From contig JQIS01000002.1 of NCBI GenBank assembly GCA_000830175.1, forward strand, positions 1 through 36,584: 36,584 bases of DNA, in the 5' to 3' direction. Shown piece after piece: positions 15,617 to 27,524 of the stretch. The notes under the pieces are model-generated. The model made no database searches. It was not told where the DNA came from and saw nothing but the letters and a program-made list of their open reading frames with translations. How positions within the stretch are numbered: the stretch's first letter is position 1; the number at the start of each line of letters is the position of its first letter. Source of the DNA: Sulfurovum sp. FS08-3 (GTDB lineage Bacteria; Campylobacterota; Campylobacteria; Campylobacterales; Sulfurovaceae). Made by a program: the position numbers and the translations under genes.

Positions 15617-15885
15617 TGATGCAAAACTTTTTAGTAGCCTACGATATATACAATCCAAAAAGACTCTATAAAGTACGCAAACTGCTCTATAGCTACGCCC
15701 TATCTGGGCAAAAATCGGCTCTTGAGATGCCTCTAACGCACATTTTGTGCCGTGAAATGATACAGCAACTTGAGCCTTTGATTGAGAATGAAGATAGGGT
15801 GAACGTTATCAAAATCGTTGGCAAACCGATTTTATTGGGCAAGGCGGAGACTTTGGAGTATCATAAGGGAGTGATTATTGTATGA
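15616..15885 (+). CDS. cas2: CRISPR-associated Cas2 (first copy)
   Basis: An 89-residue ferredoxin-fold Cas2. The first strand FLVAYDI carries the family Asp (D10), followed by the basic helix NPKRLYKVRKLL, then YALSGQKSALE in place of the usual YGxRVQxSVFE. Cas2 dimers bridge two Cas1 dimers in the integrase. The ATG at 15616 overlaps the previous stop by one base, and a second ATG follows directly. The stop overlaps the cas1 start (ATGA). It differs clearly from the second Cas2 downstream (roughly a third identical by eye), so it is not a recent duplicate. Confidence 0.88.
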   Translation: MMQNFLVAYDIYNPKRLYKVRKLLYSYALSGQKSALEMPLTHILCREMIQQLEPLIENEDRVNVIKIVGKPILLGKAETLEYHKGVIIV

Positions 15886-16757
15886 GACTGGCTATTATTG
15901 ATCAAAAAGATATTACTATCAAGATAGACAATGGAGCTATCAAGCTTCCTATGCACAATATCCCTCTCAATCTCATTGATATTGTGTTGCTCAACCATCA
16001 AGCCACACTTCACACCAACGATATACTCAAACTCACAAAAGCCAATCTATCCATACTCATTATCGCCTCCAATAACAACCATATCGCACTCATTTCAAGT
16101 GCCAATAGCAAAAATGCAGAGCTTAAACTCGCTCAATATCGCTCTTTGGAATACAAAATGGAGTTTGCTCACTATTTTTTGAGACAAAAGTTCACCCATC
16201 ACCATGCGCAACTCAAAGCCAATGGTATGGATATTCAACTCGATTTAGCATTGAATCATCTTAAAATTGCCAAGAGTATTGATGAGATGATGGGAATAGA
16301 GGGGGCGTTTGCACGAGACTATTTTGAGAAGTTTTTTACTCTCATTTCTCAAAACTTTCACAAATCCCAACGCTCCAAAAAGCCACCACTTGACCCACTC
16401 AATGCAATGCTCTCATTTTGGTATTCGCTTATTTATAATATTATCACTATCAAGCTACTCTCTCATGGATTTGAGCCTTCTATTGGCTATTTGCATCAAG
16501 CCTTTAGGAGACACAATGCTCTATCATCGGATATTTTAGAAATTTTTCGTGCTGCTATCAATCAAGCAGTTTTGGGTATATTCAAAAATGAACTCCTTGA
16601 AATCAAAGACTTTAGCTACAAAAATGGCGGTGTCTATCTCAAATACGAGGGGCGTAAAAAAATATGGAAAGAGTTTGTGGCTTTTGTGGAGATACTCAAA
16701 CCGCAAATTGACCATGAGATAGCAACCATAAGAAAGATGATTGATGAAAAAATATGA
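15882..16757 (+). CDS. cas1: CRISPR-associated endonuclease/integrase Cas1
   Basis: A 291-residue Cas1, within the family's usual length. The N-terminal beta domain (1-75) is followed by the all-helical catalytic domain. Metal ligands are E140 (MGIEGAFARDYF), H205 (GYLHQAFRR) and an acidic residue of ALSSDILEIFR (D217 or E220). It catalyses integration of new spacers at the leader end together with Cas2. The start overlaps cas2 by 4 nt, and the end overlaps the second cas2 by 14 nt. All catalytic positions are intact, so activity is likely. No reverse transcriptase or Cas4 fusion is present. Confidence 0.95.
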   Translation: MRLAIIDQKDITIKIDNGAIKLPMHNIPLNLIDIVLLNHQATLHTNDILKLTKANLSILIIASNNNHIALISSANSKNAELKLAQYRSLEYKMEFAHYFLRQKFTHHHAQLKANGMDIQLDLALNHLKIAKSIDEMMGIEGAFARDYFEKFFTLISQNFHKSQRSKKPPLDPLNAMLSFWYSLIYNIITIKLLSHGFEPSIGYLHQAFRRHNALSSDILEIFRAAINQAVLGIFKNELLEIKDFSYKNGGVYLKYEGRKKIWKEFVAFVEILKPQIDHEIATIRKMIDEKI

Positions 16758-17022
16758 TTTTGTGATAGGATACGATATATCTTCGCCCAAACGCCTTGCA
16801 AAGGTATCAAAATATCTTGAATGCTACGCTATGCGTATCCAAAAATCTATTTTTTTGTATCCAAATGTCTCCAAAATAGAACTTAAGGCTAGGATAGACG
16901 AGCTTACGAGTCTAATCGATGCCAACCATGATGATGTGCGTATCTATCAAATAGACACAAAACACTCTCTATCTATCAATAGTGCGATTGATTTGCAAAA
17001 CCCCACTATCATCAAAGGCTAA
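16744..17022 (+). CDS. cas2: CRISPR-associated Cas2 (second copy)
   Basis: A 92-residue Cas2 with the more canonical sequence: FVIGYDISSPKRLAKVSKYL (metal Asp D11) and YAMRIQKSIFLYP, matching the YGxRVQxSVFE motif. The gene begins 14 nt inside the end of cas1; the ATG at 16744 is used because the upstream TTG would add only one residue. Having Cas2 on both sides of Cas1 allows heteromeric Cas2 dimers or two alternative integrase complexes. Which copy bridges Cas1 cannot be told from sequence. Confidence 0.92.
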   Translation: MKKYDFVIGYDISSPKRLAKVSKYLECYAMRIQKSIFLYPNVSKIELKARIDELTSLIDANHDDVRIYQIDTKHSLSINSAIDLQNPTIIKG

Positions 17023-17025
17023 AGA

Positions 17026-17388
17026 GTGCAAAACATCTACCAACAAATCGATAAGATATTTGATAATCCATCCTCCAAACGCCCTAAATGGGCGGATGAG
17101 CTTTTTGAAGAGATTCAAGAACTCAAAGCTTTGCTCAAAGCACAAACTCAACAAACTCAACAAAAGAGCAAAAATGAGAAGAGTGATGATTTTTTTGAGT
17201 TTTTAAGAGAATTTCGCAAAAATTTGCAAACCGATACCGCAAAAAGCATAGAGTATCAAGGGCAAAAGCTAGGTATCGATAGCAATGGACTGCTCTACGA
17301 CAAAGAGACTCTAGTGACACTTAGCAGACAAAAAGCCTATCTAATCTATAACTATTTCTACAAAATACAACTAAAAAATAATTTTTAG
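17026..17388 (+). CDS. Unknown 120-residue protein between cas2 and the CRISPR leader
   Basis: Not recognised. GTG start 3 nt after the cas2 stop, with AAAGG 7 nt upstream. Three parts are seen: an N-terminal amphipathic helix region (KWADELFEEIQELKALLKAQ, about 22-41), a polar Gln/Lys linker (41-54), and a C-terminal domain (55-120) with YQGQKLGIDSNGLLYDKETL and a Tyr-rich end (YLIYNYFYKI). It has no cysteines, no signal peptide and no membrane segment. Position as last gene before the leader suggests a role in spacer acquisition or leader binding; this is inference. Confidence 0.7.
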   Translation: MQNIYQQIDKIFDNPSSKRPKWADELFEEIQELKALLKAQTQQTQQKSKNEKSDDFFEFLREFRKNLQTDTAKSIEYQGQKLGIDSNGLLYDKETLVTLSRQKAYLIYNYFYKIQLKNNF

Positions 17389-17390
17389 TT
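17369..17390 (+). other. AT-only hairpin at the end of the last adaptation gene
   Basis: AACTAAAAA (17369-17377) and its complement (17382-17390) form a 9-bp stem with a 4-nt loop across the stop codon. It contains only two G-C pairs, so stability is low. It may mark the cas/leader boundary. Confidence 0.25.
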
Positions 17391-17539
17391 TCAAAAAAGT
17401 TTAGACAAAGGATTGAAAATCAAACTATTACAAAAAGTAATCTTGCTCAAAGAGAACAAAAAATCTAAACAAACTTCACTGTTTTTTCATGAAAGTTTCG
17501 CTTAAGAATACCAAAGCCCTATTTTACGCTATGTAGAGG
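17389..17539 (+). promoter_or_regulatory. CRISPR leader
   Basis: A 151-nt AT-rich, gene-free stretch between the last adaptation gene and the first repeat. That it is the leader end follows from the degenerate repeat at the other end of the array and the cas genes on this side. It holds GGATTGAAA (17410-17418), identical to nine bases near the end of the repeat, with TTACAA (17429-17434), the first bases of the repeat, 10 nt further on. No convincing -35/-10 pair was found. Confidence 0.7.
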
Positions 17540-19401
17540 GTTACAACACTGACCCGATTTTAAGGGGATTGAAACATTTAATTCTTCGTATACCTTGTCG
17601 CGCCAATACAGTTACAACACTGACCCGATTTTAAGGGGATTGAAACCAATGATTTTAGTCACATCTTCTATTTTGCTTGTAGTTACAACACTGACCCGAT
17701 TTTAAGGGGATTGAAACGGGGAATTTAACTTTCTTATTATTTCGATGAATAAGTTACAACACTGACCCGATTTTAAGGGGATTGAAACACCGAGCTCTTT
17801 CGATATAGTTATCAAGCTCCGGGTTACAACACTGACCCGATTTTAAGGGGATTGAAACCTATCATCATTTGTTCTCTTTATAATTATCGCTTTAGTTACA
17901 ACACTGACCCGATTTTAAGGGGATTGAAACATGGAGTCCCCATATCCGTAACCCTCCCCTACGGTTACAACACTGACCCGATTTTAAGGGGATTGAAACT
18001 TGAAACGTTTGTTGAATATTCCCCATTTACAAGTTACAACACTGACCCGATTTTAAGGGGATTGAAACTTCTCAACTCTGCATAAGTTGTTACACTCAAT
18101 TGTTACAACACTGACCCGATTTTAAGGGGATTGAAACACTCCTCCGAGCTCGTTACACGAGCCGGATTCGATGTTACAACACTGACCCGATTTTAAGGGG
18201 ATTGAAACCCCAATTCCTGTGTTACAGGGAAAACGGTGATACCATATTACAACACTGACCCGATTTTAAGGGGATTGAAACAAAACAAGCGCGATATTAG
18301 GCGAGGCGACTACAATTATTACAACACTGACCCGATTTTAAGGGGATTGAAACCTTAGCCTCCGCCGGTAGTGTTAACCACTGCCAGAATTACAACACTG
18401 ACCCGATTTTAAGGGGATTGAAACAAAGCCAAAATCTCTTCACGAGGCGGTGCATGATTACAACACTGACCCGATTTTAAGGGGATTGAAACCCATTCCG
18501 GACACTCCAGAGAAGTAGCTTCCCTGATTACAACACTGACCCGATTTTAAGGGGATTGAAACCCGCCATCAAAAACTATATTAACACGTCTTTTTTATTA
18601 CAACACTGACCCGATTTTAAGGGGATTGAAACTCAATATCTGTTGCGGAGTATTCATTTTCACCCTTATTACAACACTGACCCGATTTTAAGGGGATTGA
18701 AACCATCGCTATAATCTTTCAAAAGACCTTTTTTATAATTACAACACTGACCCGATTTTAAGGGGATTGAAACAAGCTACGTGGATCCCGACGGTCAATC
18801 CGCCTATATTACAACACTGACCCGATTTTAAGGGGATTGAAACATATTATCCTTTTTGGCATCAACCTTACCATTATATTACAACACTGACCCGATTTTA
18901 AGGGGATTGAAACCACAAGTTTTTCTATCCTTCTTGAATCGACAGAAAATTACAACACTGACCCGATTTTAAGGGGATTGAAACCATCCGGAAGCACCTT
19001 TTCCTCTACCTTTCTTTCGATTACAACACTGACCCGATTTTAAGGGGATTGAAACATTCCATCTTCGTTGCTGTTTAACGGAGATACAAAATTACAACAC
19101 TGACCCGATTTTAAGGGGATTGAAACGTAGTTATCACTCTATCCCCTCCGGTCTCTTCATAATTACAACACTGACCCGATTTTAAGGGGATTGAAACACA
19201 TCAACCTTATTGCCTTGTCGCACTCCCCTACATTACAACACTGACCCGATTTTAAGGGGATTGAAACAAATAATGCTTTGCTCTATCAAACTTCTCTTTT
19301 TATTACAACACTGACCCGATTTTAAGGGGATTGAAACATACTTCCAACCACCCTTGTTCCGTCATTGTAAGTTACAACACTGACCCGATTTTAAGGGGAT
19401 T
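17540..19401 (+). CRISPR. CRISPR array, 27 repeats and 26 spacers
   Basis: The 36-nt repeat starts RTTACAACACTGACCC and ends GATTTTAAGGGGATTGAAAC; spacers are 32-37 nt (repeat-to-repeat distance 68-73). Repeats begin at 17540, 17611, 17682 and so on. The inner 35 nt are identical in the first 26 copies. The first base is G in copies 1-10 and A in copies 11-26. Copy 27 (19371-19401) has G and loses the last five bases (GAAAC replaced by TGTAA). The ATTGAAAC end, read rightward, is the typical 8-nt 5' handle of crRNAs in type I-B/III-like systems. No cas6 or effector lies in the window, so processing and interference must come from elsewhere, if they occur. Confidence 0.98.
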
Positions 19402-19419
19402 TGTAAATAGGTTTTATGT

Positions 19420-19425
19420 TATACT
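19420..19425 (+). promoter_or_regulatory. Extended -10 promoter of the antitoxin gene
   Basis: TGTTATACT (TGN plus TATACT) starts 17 nt after the last CRISPR repeat and 23 nt before the antitoxin ATG. AAGGAG precedes that ATG by 7 nt. Confidence 0.5.
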
Positions 19426-22423: not shown

Positions 22424-23029
22424 TCAGGAGAGGTGGAGCGAGAAGACAATCACTTGTTTGCTATTGCACAAAATCTTCTCGACTCGTGTTTGCCACAGTG
22501 TGCCAAAGAGATGCTTCTCGTGGTGGTTGGCTTTGCCTTGTAGGATTTTGGTTATAAGGGGCGGTATCTTTTCATCGGGGGCGATGGATGAGGGGTTGTA
22601 GCTTATATCGACAAAGGCGTGGGTATCGTTGCGAATGAGTCGCATGGTGGCTTCTATGTTTTGAGCAAAGTGCATACGATGGGTGCGATTAAATTGCCCT
22701 CCTATCCCTTTGAAGCCCCAGTTATCAGTAGCTCCCGTGATTTGCGTGGCAATAGCGGCTATGACACCTGTCGTTTCGCTCTCCAAAGGCTTTTGAAAGC
22801 TTACTTCTATCTCGCCTCGCTGGGGTAATGCTTCACCGTAGAGGGCTTTTAAGCCTTCTCGTATCATTAAATAAGCTCCTGCAACCGTAGGGCAACTGTG
22901 TCCTGCCAATTTGACAACATCCAAATAACCAAACGTTATCACACCCTCTTCAAAAGTACCCAAAAACTCCGAGAGTCCATCGTGCAACGTGATAGGCTCA
23001 ACCCTATCGTAGAAGTTAGGATAACGCAT
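22424..23029 (-). CDS. FmdE-like domain protein, function unknown
   Basis: A 201-residue protein. LAGHSCPTVAGAYLMIREG (42-60) resembles the GHxCPGxxxG signature of the FmdE family (formylmethanofuran dehydrogenase subunit E-like), a fold that binds metals or haem through the His/Cys motif. RTHRMHF and the C-terminal HHEKHLFG are further histidine groups. No methanogenic pathway is present, so the name describes the fold only. The ATG at 23029 overlaps the stop of the upstream cytochrome gene (TGATG), linking this protein to a c-type cytochrome. Confidence 0.6.
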   Translation of the reverse strand: MRYPNFYDRVEPITLHDGLSEFLGTFEEGVITFGYLDVVKLAGHSCPTVAGAYLMIREGLKALYGEALPQRGEIEVSFQKPLESETTGVIAAIATQITGATDNWGFKGIGGQFNRTHRMHFAQNIEATMRLIRNDTHAFVDISYNPSSIAPDEKIPPLITKILQGKANHHEKHLFGTLWQTRVEKILCNSKQVIVFSLHLS

Positions 23030-23439
23030 CAAAATCTCTTGCCCTCATAGTAGTCATAGACCCACTGAGCCACGGTGTCGAGTTCTTCGTCGCTGATTTT
23101 GCCTTTTTGGGAGGGCATAAGACCAAATCTATCCAAAGCCCCGCCGTTGCACATGCTCTTATCAAGGTGCGGATTGATAACATAATCTTTGATAAAGGCT
23201 ACGACTACGGCACGATGGATTTCGTTGTCAATATCTTCTACTATTTTAATATTGCTTTTGAGTTGATGCGAGACCTCTATCATGGGTGGGGCTTTCATCT
23301 GCTTGATACGCTTAAGTGTCTCTTCTTTGGAGATAAGTTTGACATGGCACGAAGCACACTGCACATCAAATATCTTTTCGCCATTGAGTGTATTTGCCTC
23401 CAAGGACCCCAAAAGGGCTAAAATAATCAATTGCTTCAC
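23029..23439 (-). CDS. Periplasmic c-type cytochrome, monohaem
   Basis: A 136-residue class I-like cytochrome c. The signal peptide is MKQLIILALLGSLEAN, the haem site CASCH (28-32), and a likely axial Met is in APPM or in RFGLMPSQKG. The C-terminal helix reads LDTVAQWVYDYY. The GTG start at 23439 has AGGA 7 nt upstream and gives a clean signal peptide; an in-frame ATG seven codons earlier would add a charged tail (MHKKGYF). The middle segment (HRAVVVAFIKDYV) is longer than in simple cytochromes. Overlaps the FmdE-like gene by one base. Confidence 0.85.
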   Translation of the reverse strand: MKQLIILALLGSLEANTLNGEKIFDVQCASCHVKLISKEETLKRIKQMKAPPMIEVSHQLKSNIKIVEDIDNEIHRAVVVAFIKDYVINPHLDKSMCNGGALDRFGLMPSQKGKISDEELDTVAQWVYDYYEGKRF

Positions 23440-24606: not shown

Positions 24607-25323
24607 TTAAGCCCCATAAATAAACCAAAGTGCCAACAGTGAGGCGACAAGATAGAGTATCTTGTTTTTGATTTGGGTATTCCAAAAGATTTTTTCGCTC
24701 AACTGATCTCCTACTTCGATTTTGAAAGGGAGTGTGGGGTGATAGGTATTGGTGAGGAGGTAGCGGTTCTCTTTGTGAATCAATCGTCCATAGACGGTAA
24801 CAAGCGTGTGTTGTTTGAGAGTGTAGGCGGTGTATTCGTAGCGTTCAAAGGATTTGGTGAGTTTGTCTTGTTTGTAGGGGTAGCCCTCTAGCAAGGTGGT
24901 GCTTGGTAATGTATCGCTTTGGATGGTTAGGATTGTGTTGCTATCAACTCTAGGAGAGGTATCAAGCGATACGGCTATCTTGCGATTGTGGGTATCAAGC
25001 AACTCAAAGAGACCCGTGGTTTGGCTATAGAGTGCCGTAGAGACCTCATGCGTTCCTTTTTGAGGTTTTTTGCGTTTGTGTTTGCGATAACCCAAGATGT
25101 AAAAGTGATAAAAGGCTACCTCTTTGCGACTAAGGGGGCATTGATGAAGCTCTGGAGAGATAACTTTGCCCCTAAATTTGACGTAGCACCCTACCAAAGC
25201 TTCGTTGAAATAGGGGGTGTGTTTGAAGCGTTGATAGGTTTTGTAGTTTTTGACAATGGCGAGAAGATTGCCAATAAGGGAGACGACGACAATAATGGTA
25301 ACTATCCACACCAACTCTTCCAT
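24607..25323 (-). CDS. Membrane protein, possibly GIDE/BAM-domain type
   Basis: A 238-residue protein with transmembrane helices at about 5-25 and 219-237 and a soluble beta-rich domain between them. The segment GKVISPELHQCPLSRKEVAFYHFYI resembles the conserved core (xSPLSxxxCxYYxxxV) of the GIDE domain, found in bacterial membrane proteins and in the mitochondrial E3 ligase MULAN; there is no RING finger. Assignment by pattern only. It is third in the leftward radical SAM cassette, and its ATG overlaps the stop of the Asn-rich small protein (TAATG), so its synthesis is tied to that protein. Confidence 0.55.
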   Translation of the reverse strand: MEELVWIVTIIVVVSLIGNLLAIVKNYKTYQRFKHTPYFNEALVGCYVKFRGKVISPELHQCPLSRKEVAFYHFYILGYRKHKRKKPQKGTHEVSTALYSQTTGLFELLDTHNRKIAVSLDTSPRVDSNTILTIQSDTLPSTTLLEGYPYKQDKLTKSFERYEYTAYTLKQHTLVTVYGRLIHKENRYLLTNTYHPTLPFKIEVGDQLSEKIFWNTQIKNKILYLVASLLALWFIYGA

Positions 25324-25661
25324 TAGCCGTTGTTCCCGTTGTTGTTATTATTGTTGTTATTGTTATTATTATTGCTAGAACCGCTAGTGGATTGATTGCG
25401 TTGAGGTTCTTGGTTTTCGCCCAAATAGTAGCTCCCATCAATGCGTGTTATCTCATGACCGTCAAACTCATAGATGTACCAATCGTTCCCACTATACGCC
25501 ATAGATTGCGTTACGGTTGTGCCGTTTAGAAAATAGAGTTGTCCATGATGGAAGATGACTCGGCGGGTGGGCGAAGTCAAAAAGTGAGCCATAGTCTCAA
25601 TGAGTTGAGGGTTTGTTGTGATACTGGCCTCTTTCAAAAAGGCTTTGATTCGACGCTTTAT
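25323..25661 (-). CDS. Small protein with a 12-Asn tail, candidate radical SAM substrate
   Basis: Not recognised. From the upstream ATA codon the product is 112 residues: a basic helix (xKRRIKAFLKEAS), a compact aromatic-rich core (about 35-80; YFLNGTT, NDWYIYEFDGHEITRIDGSYYL) and a disordered tail with STSGSS, twelve Asn and GNNG (97-112). A perfect AAGGAG (25673-25668) stands 6 nt before the ATA at 25661; no ATG exists in this region, and the alternative TTG at 25637 (104 residues) has no ribosome site. The tail uses mixed AAT and AAC codons. Position directly after a SPASM radical SAM gene and coupled to a membrane protein suggests a modified peptide or its carrier. Confidence 0.65.
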   Translation of the reverse strand: MKRRIKAFLKEASITTNPQLIETMAHFLTSPTRRVIFHHGQLYFLNGTTVTQSMAYSGNDWYIYEFDGHEITRIDGSYYLGENQEPQRNQSTSGSSNNNNNNNNNNNNGNNG

Positions 25662-25718
25662 GAGATTCTCCTTGGGTAGGGTTGTTTGTATGATACATAC
25701 TATGATAACGGTTTGGTT

Positions 25719-27524
25719 CTAAATAGCATAAAATTCGATATTGGCAAAAGGCAAATTGATGGCTTGAATATGATAAAAGGCATTTTTTTGCTGTTTGGTG
25801 TAGTGGTATTCGCGCATGGTTTTGGTCGTGACAAAGAGATTGTTGCGTACATCATCGATCAAAAGATGGCTATGGTGTCTCAAAATCGCACCCAAATCAA
25901 ACTCCCACAAGCCATTGATATGGGTTGTACTGCCCAAAAGCGAACCCCGATAGAGCGTGTAATCCATAAGATGCTCTTGTTTGTTTCGCCCCTCATCGCC
26001 ATAGACGATGGTAGTATCACGAAGAAGCATGATATGCAAAGCATTATTGACGATGTTTTGGGTATCGCAATGCACCTCAAAGGCTTTGGGGTCGATGGTT
26101 AGCACCAAAGAGCTATCCTTTTCCCAAAACAAAACGCTCTGTTTGGTTTTGAGTATCGCACTAGCAAGAGGATAGGATTTGCCATTGAGCTTAAGAGTAA
26201 ACAATCTATCGCTGTATATCTCTTGCAATACGCTATCGTTTGCTATGAGCGATGAGAGAGCATTTTTATCTTCGTAGAGTTCGTGAGTAATATTTGCCAA
26301 ACGTTTGGGATGAGGTGTCAAACGAGGAAGTTGTGCGATTTTGTTTTCGTAGCAATAGAGACGCACGTGCGACTCCACTTCATCGGGAGCAAACGGGGGA
26401 TAACGGCTAGGATTGTCTTGATAGATTGCTTTTTGCAATGCACAGGTATAGCTTTTGTGCGTTTGGTTTTCACTGCGTACAAAGGTGCAGCCCAAATTGC
26501 AATAGCCAAAATAGTGGCAAGTGAGACACTCTTGATCAATCCCCAAAGCGTTTTCATTGGAGGCGATTTGTTCATAGCCTTTTTGGATAATTCTCTCGAT
26601 GGTATCTTGATAAATATTGCCGTATCGATAGGCTTTGGAGGATTGTCCTCGTGGGCAGGAATAGACCTCGCCATCAAACTGCACCAAAAAAAACTTATTA
26701 CCGCAATTGGAAGCACTGCAACAATATTCAGGAGTAAACTCTCTAAACCAATGCTCCCTAAAGCCCTCTTCAAGCGGTGTACCTCTAAAGCTCTCTTGCA
26801 AAGCTTTGTACAAAATGACCTGTTGGGTATCGCTTAGCATCTGCGTTCCCTCGATTTTGCCCCCAAACTTCTCCTCATTGCGCAGCGAATCAAATCCAAA
26901 CATGATATTAAAACGACTCATATCAAGCCCTATATCGTAATGTAAGTGGTTAATATCGGCAACAAAGGCATCGATATGCTCCAAATGTTCACGCGTCACT
27001 ACGCACGATATTTTTTTGTGGTGAGGATAGGTGGCTAGGAGTTTGAGATTGTTGAGAATTTTTTCAAGCGTAGAGCCTCCCTCTCTATTAACTCGATACT
27101 TTTCATGCAAAAAAAGAGGCAAATCGATACTAGCACTCACCGATACACCGTATTGTTCGCAAAGGGCGTAGTGCTTATCGAAAGTATAGAGATTGGTTTT
27201 GATGTGAATAGGATTGTGTTGATAGCCAAACGATTCGATAATGGGATGATGGTTGCGATAATAGTTTTTGGCAATCTTAAAAAGTGCTTCGAGCGTAGAG
27301 GAGGGTAGGGCGGTCACCTCTCCACCGTGAAACGAGAGATTGTAAGGAATGTAGCCCTTTTGGGTAAACTCTCCAATGGCATACTCAAGCGTCTCTATCG
27401 CTTTTTGGGTATCGATTTTGACCTGCGTCTCGTCGCCCAAATAGCAATATTGACACCCCATATTGCAAAAAAGTGTCGGAACATAGAGCAGATGAATCGC
27501 TTTTTTGTAGGGTTGTGCCTCCAT
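25719..27524 (-). CDS. SPASM-domain radical SAM enzyme, peptide-maturase type
   Basis: A 601-residue radical SAM protein. C20-x3-C24-x2-C27 (CNMGCQYC) binds the SAM cluster, and HGGEV (66-70) is the GGE motif. A SPASM region for two extra clusters has C268, C269, C274, C290, C333, C336, C342, C346 and C361. This resembles sulfatase-maturing and RiPP-maturing enzymes (anSME, GrrM-like). The C-terminal 240 residues after the SPASM domain are unusual in length and unrecognised, perhaps a substrate-recognition part. GGAG lies 5 nt before the ATG. No sulfatase is in view; the downstream small Asn-rich protein is the best substrate candidate. Confidence 0.85.
   Translation of the reverse strand: MEAQPYKKAIHLLYVPTLFCNMGCQYCYLGDETQVKIDTQKAIETLEYAIGEFTQKGYIPYNLSFHGGEVTALPSSTLEALFKIAKNYYRNHHPIIESFGYQHNPIHIKTNLYTFDKHYALCEQYGVSVSASIDLPLFLHEKYRVNREGGSTLEKILNNLKLLATYPHHKKISCVVTREHLEHIDAFVADINHLHYDIGLDMSRFNIMFGFDSLRNEEKFGGKIEGTQMLSDTQQVILYKALQESFRGTPLEEGFREHWFREFTPEYCCSASNCGNKFFLVQFDGEVYSCPRGQSSKAYRYGNIYQDTIERIIQKGYEQIASNENALGIDQECLTCHYFGYCNLGCTFVRSENQTHKSYTCALQKAIYQDNPSRYPPFAPDEVESHVRLYCYENKIAQLPRLTPHPKRLANITHELYEDKNALSSLIANDSVLQEIYSDRLFTLKLNGKSYPLASAILKTKQSVLFWEKDSSLVLTIDPKAFEVHCDTQNIVNNALHIMLLRDTTIVYGDEGRNKQEHLMDYTLYRGSLLGSTTHINGLWEFDLGAILRHHSHLLIDDVRNNLFVTTKTMREYHYTKQQKNAFYHIQAINLPFANIEFYAI

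Follow-up and report, generated by a model that had tools for sequence, protein, structure and literature searches.

An anSME-like radical SAM enzyme family encoded beside proteins with asparagine-rich C-terminal ends in bacteria and Campylobacter phages

Among radical S-adenosylmethionine (SAM) enzymes with a SPASM region, the sulfatase-maturating enzyme anSMEcpe acts on a protein and oxidises a residue of its substrate. In the GrrM/OscB cyclophane maturases and in HxsB of the His-Xaa-Ser system the SPASM enzyme is paired with a protein carrying a repetitive tail, and the tails targeted by GrrM and the 3-residue cyclophane maturases contain aromatic residues. Sactipeptide and ranthipeptide systems have Cys in the core peptide, and the proteusins (polytheonamide), which come with radical SAM epimerases, are modified peptides rich in asparagine (Asn). 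The present study deals with a stretch of 36,584 nucleotides from Sulfurovum sp. FS08-3 (contig JQIS01000002.1, positions 1 to 36,584; hereafter the window), which has on its minus strand three adjacent genes for a radical SAM/SPASM enzyme, a small protein with an Asn tail and a membrane protein. It was found that in the testable loci members of this enzyme family lie beside a gene encoding an Asn-rich C-terminal tag, and that this occurs in two settings, with the small protein in bacteria and with a tail fibre in phages. As judged from sequence, we put at roughly two in three the probability that the family recognises Asn-rich C-terminal tails, that of the small protein in bacteria and that of the fibre tip in phages, and probably modifies them by oxidation. 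A SPASM maturase with a repeat-tailed neighbour is a known kind of system; the surprising part is the phage fibre as a target.

The cassette and the tail of its small protein

The cassette of three genes is real and conserved. A preliminary description of this DNA had reported a leftward three-gene run, a 112-residue protein ending in N12-G-NN-G and an overlap of its stop with the start of the membrane gene, and all of this was confirmed, the ATG of the membrane gene overlapping the small-gene stop by one base (TAATG). The length of 112 residues, however, is right only with an ATA start (25661-25659), located 6 nt behind AAGGAG; if ATG, GTG and TTG are the only starts allowed, a TTG open reading frame (ORF) of 104 aa is obtained. 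A close relative (L011), with an enzyme 95% identical, has ATG at this position. The ATA at 25659-25661 may stem from an error in the assembly, or it may be a weak start that is used in nature.

Complete small proteins are available from 13 cassettes of gammaproteobacterial and Sulfurovum-type genomes, and each of them has a C-terminal tail of 10-19 Asn, in most cases with Gly in between, that closes with a Gly. Locus L014, whose contig stops within the enzyme gene, is not part of this count. The bacterial tail holds only Asn and Gly; Cys and aromatic residues are absent from all 13 tails, and six of the 13 small proteins lack Cys altogether. Identity to the small protein of the window is 35-41% with the tail included (alignment A2), apart from one neighbour at 92%, and 21-36% with the tail removed (alignment A6). 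Pfam, NCBIfam and PHROGs gave no match to the small protein within the limits applied, and its PDB sequence matches, mostly maltose-binding-protein fusions, were discarded as they lie in poly-Asn columns. A DNA pattern for the poly-Asn tail gave 0 matches in viral contigs.

The preliminary description had suggested aligning the small proteins for a conserved core and a variable tail and had proposed either the tail or a YIYEFDG/YY core as the modified site. An FDG..ITRID..YYLG motif is mostly kept among the small proteins, and the tail is retained in all 13 while the rest of the protein diverges. The core as modified site was not supported, since the motif is largely gone from the L077 protein, which ends in N16-G, and nothing like it was noticed in phage fibres. 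The tail as a likely target gained support from its presence in every complete cassette and from the Asn-rich fibre ends described below.

Of 60 genomes, the source genome among them, three have the enzyme, and these three also have the small protein. A scan of genome contigs gave nine loci, namely two Sulfurovum, Parabeggiatoa, Beggiatoa, Thiotrichales, Thiotrichaceae, Thiothrix, a metagenome-assembled genome named 'Proteobacteria bacterium' and Pseudoalteromonas. Within the order of the Thiothrix genome 3/63 genomes have the enzyme, including one not among these loci (L079), and within the class of the Pseudoalteromonas genome 3/369 have it, including two not among them (L077 and L078); a search with the tail-stripped small protein gave 3/369 genomes. 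Both genes were found in genomes G712 and G724 and in the centre genome of each of two gammaproteobacterial samples of 369, which are apparently the same apart from the centre (the listed members agree, and 346 are not among them). The expected co-occurrence was thus observed, enzyme and small protein never being seen apart in the bacterial branch, where L014 is untestable. Up to three candidates per genome were scored in the 369-genome enzyme search and in the 397-genome search given below, and absences there are soft.

The membrane gene follows the small gene in 12/12 testable loci, that is, in the ten rows of alignment A4 and in L078 and L079, where it was judged by eye from a K-x-K-x-P-x-x-G motif; L014 and L077 could not be tested, their contigs ending too early. 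A two-helix membrane protein had been described initially, and the predicted model (predicted local distance difference test, pLDDT, 83.0) consists of a helix, a beta domain and a helix. The domain is matched weakly by oligonucleotide/oligosaccharide-binding (OB) fold proteins, with Z-scores up to 8.7 and a best Foldseek expectation value (E) of 0.014. The protein may resemble GIDE/MULAN-like membrane proteins; the GIDE family was not among the Pfam matches of 10 members at E up to 1. A Pfam 'Plus-3' match was set aside at E 0.19. In Pseudoalteromonas the gene order differs, the small and membrane genes preceding the enzyme. There the cassette (L013, 148-4714) stands behind a Band-7/SPFH gene and ORFs resembling NAD-salvage genes by eye, which were not noticed at other loci. 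In the most divergent bacterial cassette (L077, 2407-3713) the enzyme is preceded by an Rce1-like membrane protease, encoded two genes earlier, and by a further small protein. No protease, exporter or further modifying enzyme was noticed in the conserved cassette.

Fibre ends of the phage branch

A profile of the enzyme (alignment A1) matched in 8/397 Campylobacterota genomes; the source genome is one of the eight, and five belong to another family. The phage-branch enzymes are homologous to the bacterial ones over their whole length, including the C-terminal domain, at 34-36% identity (four rows). In the prophages the order is fibre, a protein of ~212 aa (PHROG 10241; 125 aa in L019) and enzyme, and 6/153 genomes of the host family carry the enzyme. 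These hosts appear to be Campylobacter-like from named records. In Campylobacter coli phage CAM-P21 and in a C. coli plasmid record a tail sheath gene lies further on, preceded in the plasmid record by an annotated DUF1353 gene. CAM-P21 is the one phage of the family found in INPHARED, the other rows being partial matches at 22-23%, and the other two rows of the plasmid search were partial matches at 24-25%. The phage loci are at least those among the matches listed, and more may exist. The preliminary description had suggested that the product may go to or through the membrane; in the phage loci no membrane gene of the bacterial kind lies between fibre and enzyme.

Among the matches listed, the fibre has NN in its last six residues in 26/26 rows with enzyme and fibre. 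The ends are STNNNNY, ATNNNNY, SSNNNNY, TGNNF, MGNNF, SSGNNF, MGNNS, CNNNNN, GNNGGSS and GNNNNNGNNNTK. These 26 rows overlap, as several represent one prophage that was reached by two routes, or prophages that are nearly identical. Outside the count are partial matches at 23-28% (L023, L037-L039), a locus whose fibre lies beyond its end (L086) and further copies of contigs already counted (L080-L085, L087-L090). Homologous radical SAM genes without the small protein had been named in the preliminary description as evidence that would speak against its proposal. The phage branch provides such genes, but the neighbouring gene there encodes a fibre whose C-terminus is rich in Asn, and this strengthens the case for the tail.

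A natural control is available in 28 viral contigs that encode a fibre with the same N-terminal anchor, 26 of these fibres being complete (those of L043 and L044 are cut and stand outside). The tag was present in 7/7 fibres with the enzyme and the 212-aa gene behind them and in 0/19 with neither gene in the available stretch; the corresponding chance is 1/C(26,7) = 1.5e-6, for rows that are not independent. When tips were clustered without their last ten residues, 3/3 classes with the enzyme were tagged against 0/6 without it (1/84 = 0.012). NN in the last six residues is rare elsewhere: it was seen in 27 of 513 distinct closed ORFs from the collected loci, 23 of which are the small proteins or fibres described here and four are others. 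The 513 were picked as the longest non-overlapping ORFs with near-identical prophages counted apart, and several small proteins dropped out because longer out-of-frame ORFs overlap them.

It could be argued that there is no functional link, poly-Asn being low-complexity drift and the gene order being inherited. Tail length does vary between close relatives, with a main run of 12 Asn in one and 8 in the other. Against this, the Asn codons are a mixture of AAT and AAC in 10/10 loci looked at (6 AAT and 8 AAC in the last 20 codons of the window), the tail is present in both Campylobacterota and Gammaproteobacteria, and the terminal Gly is found in 13/13. On the mixed codons, the fibre control and the rarity of NN ends, chance low complexity was rejected, and drift with inherited gene order, already disfavoured, is considered very improbable.

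The fibres of L091 and L094 have no Phage_tail_fib anchor and still carry tags. The L091 fibre has the same tip and tag as that of L055, which does have this anchor. Since tip and tag are common to these two fibres and the N-terminus is different, it looks as if tip, tag, 212-aa gene and enzyme form a single unit that can be exchanged. In the 26-fibre comparison the 212-aa gene (L024, 10351-10986; PHROG 10241, no function) occurs only with the enzyme, and it is a possible fibre chaperone or enzyme partner. Campylobacter phages CP220 and CPt10 are reported in PMC2853527 to have 11-12 radical SAM proteins, which are discussed there as metabolic. These proteins are absent from the phage-collection matches of two family members (E 1e-8 and 1e-6). 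Proteins of CP220 and CP21 gave only weaker, partial fold matches, and in the viral fold library radical SAM proteins align over part of the enzyme model.

The enzyme and its predicted reaction

The counts first reported for the enzyme, a CX3CX2C motif, nine SPASM-region Cys and an extension of ~240 residues, are all correct. The SAM-cluster Cys are C20, C24 and C27, and those of the SPASM region are C268, C269, C274, C290, C333, C336, C342, C346 and C361. All are invariant in the 11 rows of alignment A1, and when phage rows are added (alignment A5, 13 rows) every Cys except C269 is still invariant. The matches to PF04055 (37.8 bits, cut-off 29.5) and to the SPASM domain TIGR04085 at residues 274-361 (39.1 bits, cut-off 27) exceed their cut-offs. 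The seven-Cys SPASM motif is CX9-15GX4C...CX2CX5CX3C...C, and the enzyme has it as C274-X10-G285-X4-C290, C333-X2-C336-X5-C342-X3-C346 and C361. No Pfam match covers the ~240 C-terminal residues, in which NAFYHxxxINLPFxxxxF is present (A5). PHROG 1802, a 'radical SAM domain-containing protein' of category 'other', matches the window enzyme at 3-598, and both branches, with the window enzyme and that of CAM-P21, match it nearly full-length (E 5e-47 and 5e-139), but the entry names no target, tag or bacterial cassette.

The closest fold match to the AlphaFold (AF2) model of the enzyme (pLDDT 83.6, predicted template modelling score 0.64) is anSMEcpe, with Z 25.1, a root-mean-square deviation of 3.5 and 331 residues aligned, followed by ChlB (Z 22.9), the sactipeptide thioether enzyme 5wgg (Z 20.4) and the EpeE epimerase (Z 13.2); most of these alignments end near residue 376 and hardly cover the C-terminal domain. 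In a profile alignment with anSMEcpe the Cys line up with matching spacing. The enzyme is an anSME-like core with its own C-terminal domain of ~240 residues. The core, the SPASM spacing and the fold are common to anSME (4k36-4k39), which differs in lacking the additional domain; the conserved cassette is also without a sulfatase. Membership in anSME itself was rejected (TIGR03942, 79.4 against 349.45 bits), the Asp after the third Cys of auxiliary cluster I (AuxI) in anSME being aligned to Pro or His here.

No NCBIfam equivalog cut-off was reached (best 25 of 38 families); the enzyme lies near the DynA, anSME and PapB profiles. Like GrrM/OscB and HxsB, it is a SPASM enzyme with a partner that has a repetitive tail. 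It scores only 58.7 against 370 bits for HxsB, and the bacterial tail here is made of Asn and Gly alone; GrrM/cyclophane membership was rejected at 64.8 against 310 bits and for want of aromatic residues in the 13 bacterial tails. Sactipeptide or ranthipeptide membership was rejected from the NCBIfam cut-offs and the absence of Cys noted above. A defence system was also rejected, PADLOC matches being marginal only (viperin, 2.8e-4, on the SAM core; others 0.0048 and 0.0055).

Proteusins resemble the present system in having an Asn-rich peptide, and the Asn tails could be epimerised to D-Asn, a redox-neutral change as made by proteusin- or EpeE-type radical SAM epimerases that would give an alternating D/L helix or ladder. 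The homopolymeric Asn and the presence of EpeE among the structural matches are in line with this. The anSME-type fold is far closer, however, Cys for two full auxiliary clusters would fit an oxidative reaction better, and no known leader type was recognised in the small protein in Pfam or NCBIfam. The proteusins also differ in that here a SPASM enzyme is present and a further modifying enzyme was not noticed. Epimerisation is regarded as quite unlikely.

Oxidative modification of the tail is favoured instead. As far as seen, the two kinds of protein have nothing in common except that their C-terminus is rich in Asn and that an enzyme with a distinctive C-terminal domain is encoded nearby, which suggests that this domain would read the tag while the core modifies it. 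The core would abstract a hydrogen, probably from C-beta, of Asn, and two auxiliary clusters, predicted from Cys spacing, would take the second electron. Since the enzyme has Cys for two full auxiliary clusters and lies near the DynA, anSME and PapB profiles, an oxidative change at Asn appears favoured, possibly repeated along the bacterial tail as an iterative loss of two hydrogens that would give a cross-link or a desaturation. In bacteria the translationally coupled membrane protein suggests that the modified small protein would act together with it at the inner membrane. In phages the modified end would lie at the fibre tip, where contact with receptors is made, and would complete this receptor-binding part; one may speculate on cross-linking of chains, metal binding or glycan binding.

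Table 1. Features of the cassette in the window.
Feature	Coordinates	Strand	Evidence
Radical SAM/SPASM maturase, 601 aa	25719..27524	-	sequence, Pfam, NCBIfam, alignments, AF2 model, fold match
CX3CX2C [4Fe-4S]/SAM motif, residues 20-27	27444..27467	-	sequence; three Cys invariant in A5 (13 rows)
SPASM region, residues 268-361, likely Cys ligands of two auxiliary clusters	26442..26723	-	TIGR04085; spacing matches anSMEcpe
Enzyme C-terminal domain, residues ~370-601, common to bacterial and phage branches	25722..26417	-	A5; PHROG 1802
Asn-tailed small protein, 112 aa, ATA start	25323..25661	-	sequence, relatives
C-terminal tail N12-G-N2-G, 16 codons	25326..25373	-	sequence, relatives
Membrane protein: helix, beta domain (OB-like), helix; KxKxPxxG motif	24607..25323	-	A4 (10 rows), AF2 model, OB-fold matches

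Elsewhere in the window (15882-19421) there is an array of clustered regularly interspaced short palindromic repeats (CRISPR), with 27 repeats at a period of ~70 nt (17529-19421), downstream of cas1 and cas2 (PF01867, PF09827), and one further ORF (17026-17388) lies between these genes and the array. A TTG-start ORF at 22424-23032 has a weak FmdE-like match (E 0.0048, below the cut-off) and adjoins a cytochrome c gene.

Asn-rich tails as possible substrates

Several points weigh against modification of the tail. The phage tags are short and varied (GNNF, GNNS, GNNGGSS), many rows are near-identical, and the enzyme may simply travel with the tag in a single recombination unit. A broken enzyme gene lies beside a tagged fibre in two phage loci, and one of these (L047, which shares its contig with L036) is counted in the control with the seven rows that have the enzyme. 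Four of the 19 untagged control loci (L046, L050, L058, L065) end less than 1.5 kb past the fibre, so that it is mainly the lack of the 212-aa gene that indicates absence of the enzyme there. In anSME the catalytic base is the Asp that follows the third AuxI Cys, and with Pro or His in its place the outcome need not be anSME-like.

The tag may also be a recognition element only. It would then be a C-terminal 'follower', and the enzyme would modify the preceding domain, at aromatic or DG turns in the case of the small protein and at the tip in the case of the fibre. This is consistent with the FDGxxITRIDxxYYLG-like residues common to most small proteins, and a tag as short as GNNS leaves little to modify. 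However, L077 keeps N16 with most of the aromatic motif lost, the sequence before the tag differs between fibre tip classes, and homopolymers of 7-16 Asn suggest repeated modification. A handle of this kind is judged unlikely.

With modification of the tail itself preferred, the balance tips slightly towards a previously unrecognised system, in which a radical SAM enzyme would install an Asn-based modification on C-terminal tags. Campylobacter phages would mature their fibre tips in this way, and Sulfurovum-, Beggiatoa-, Thiothrix- and Pseudoalteromonas-type bacteria would use the same enzyme family on a small protein that carries poly-Asn and is coupled to a membrane protein. Neither an Asn-tail maturase nor a radical SAM enzyme acting on tail fibres was found described in the titles and first lines of abstracts listed from the open-licence papers searched, nor in the parts available of PMC2853527, PMC8743553, PMC3322345 and PMC7291426. 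If the proposal is true, SPASM chemistry has a new class of substrates in C-terminal poly-Asn, and phage adsorption proteins can carry a radical-SAM-made modification that is invisible to sequence and structure prediction. This would matter for the reading of phage host range. Tagged and untagged fibres on one anchor offer a natural comparison for a modification of the tag.

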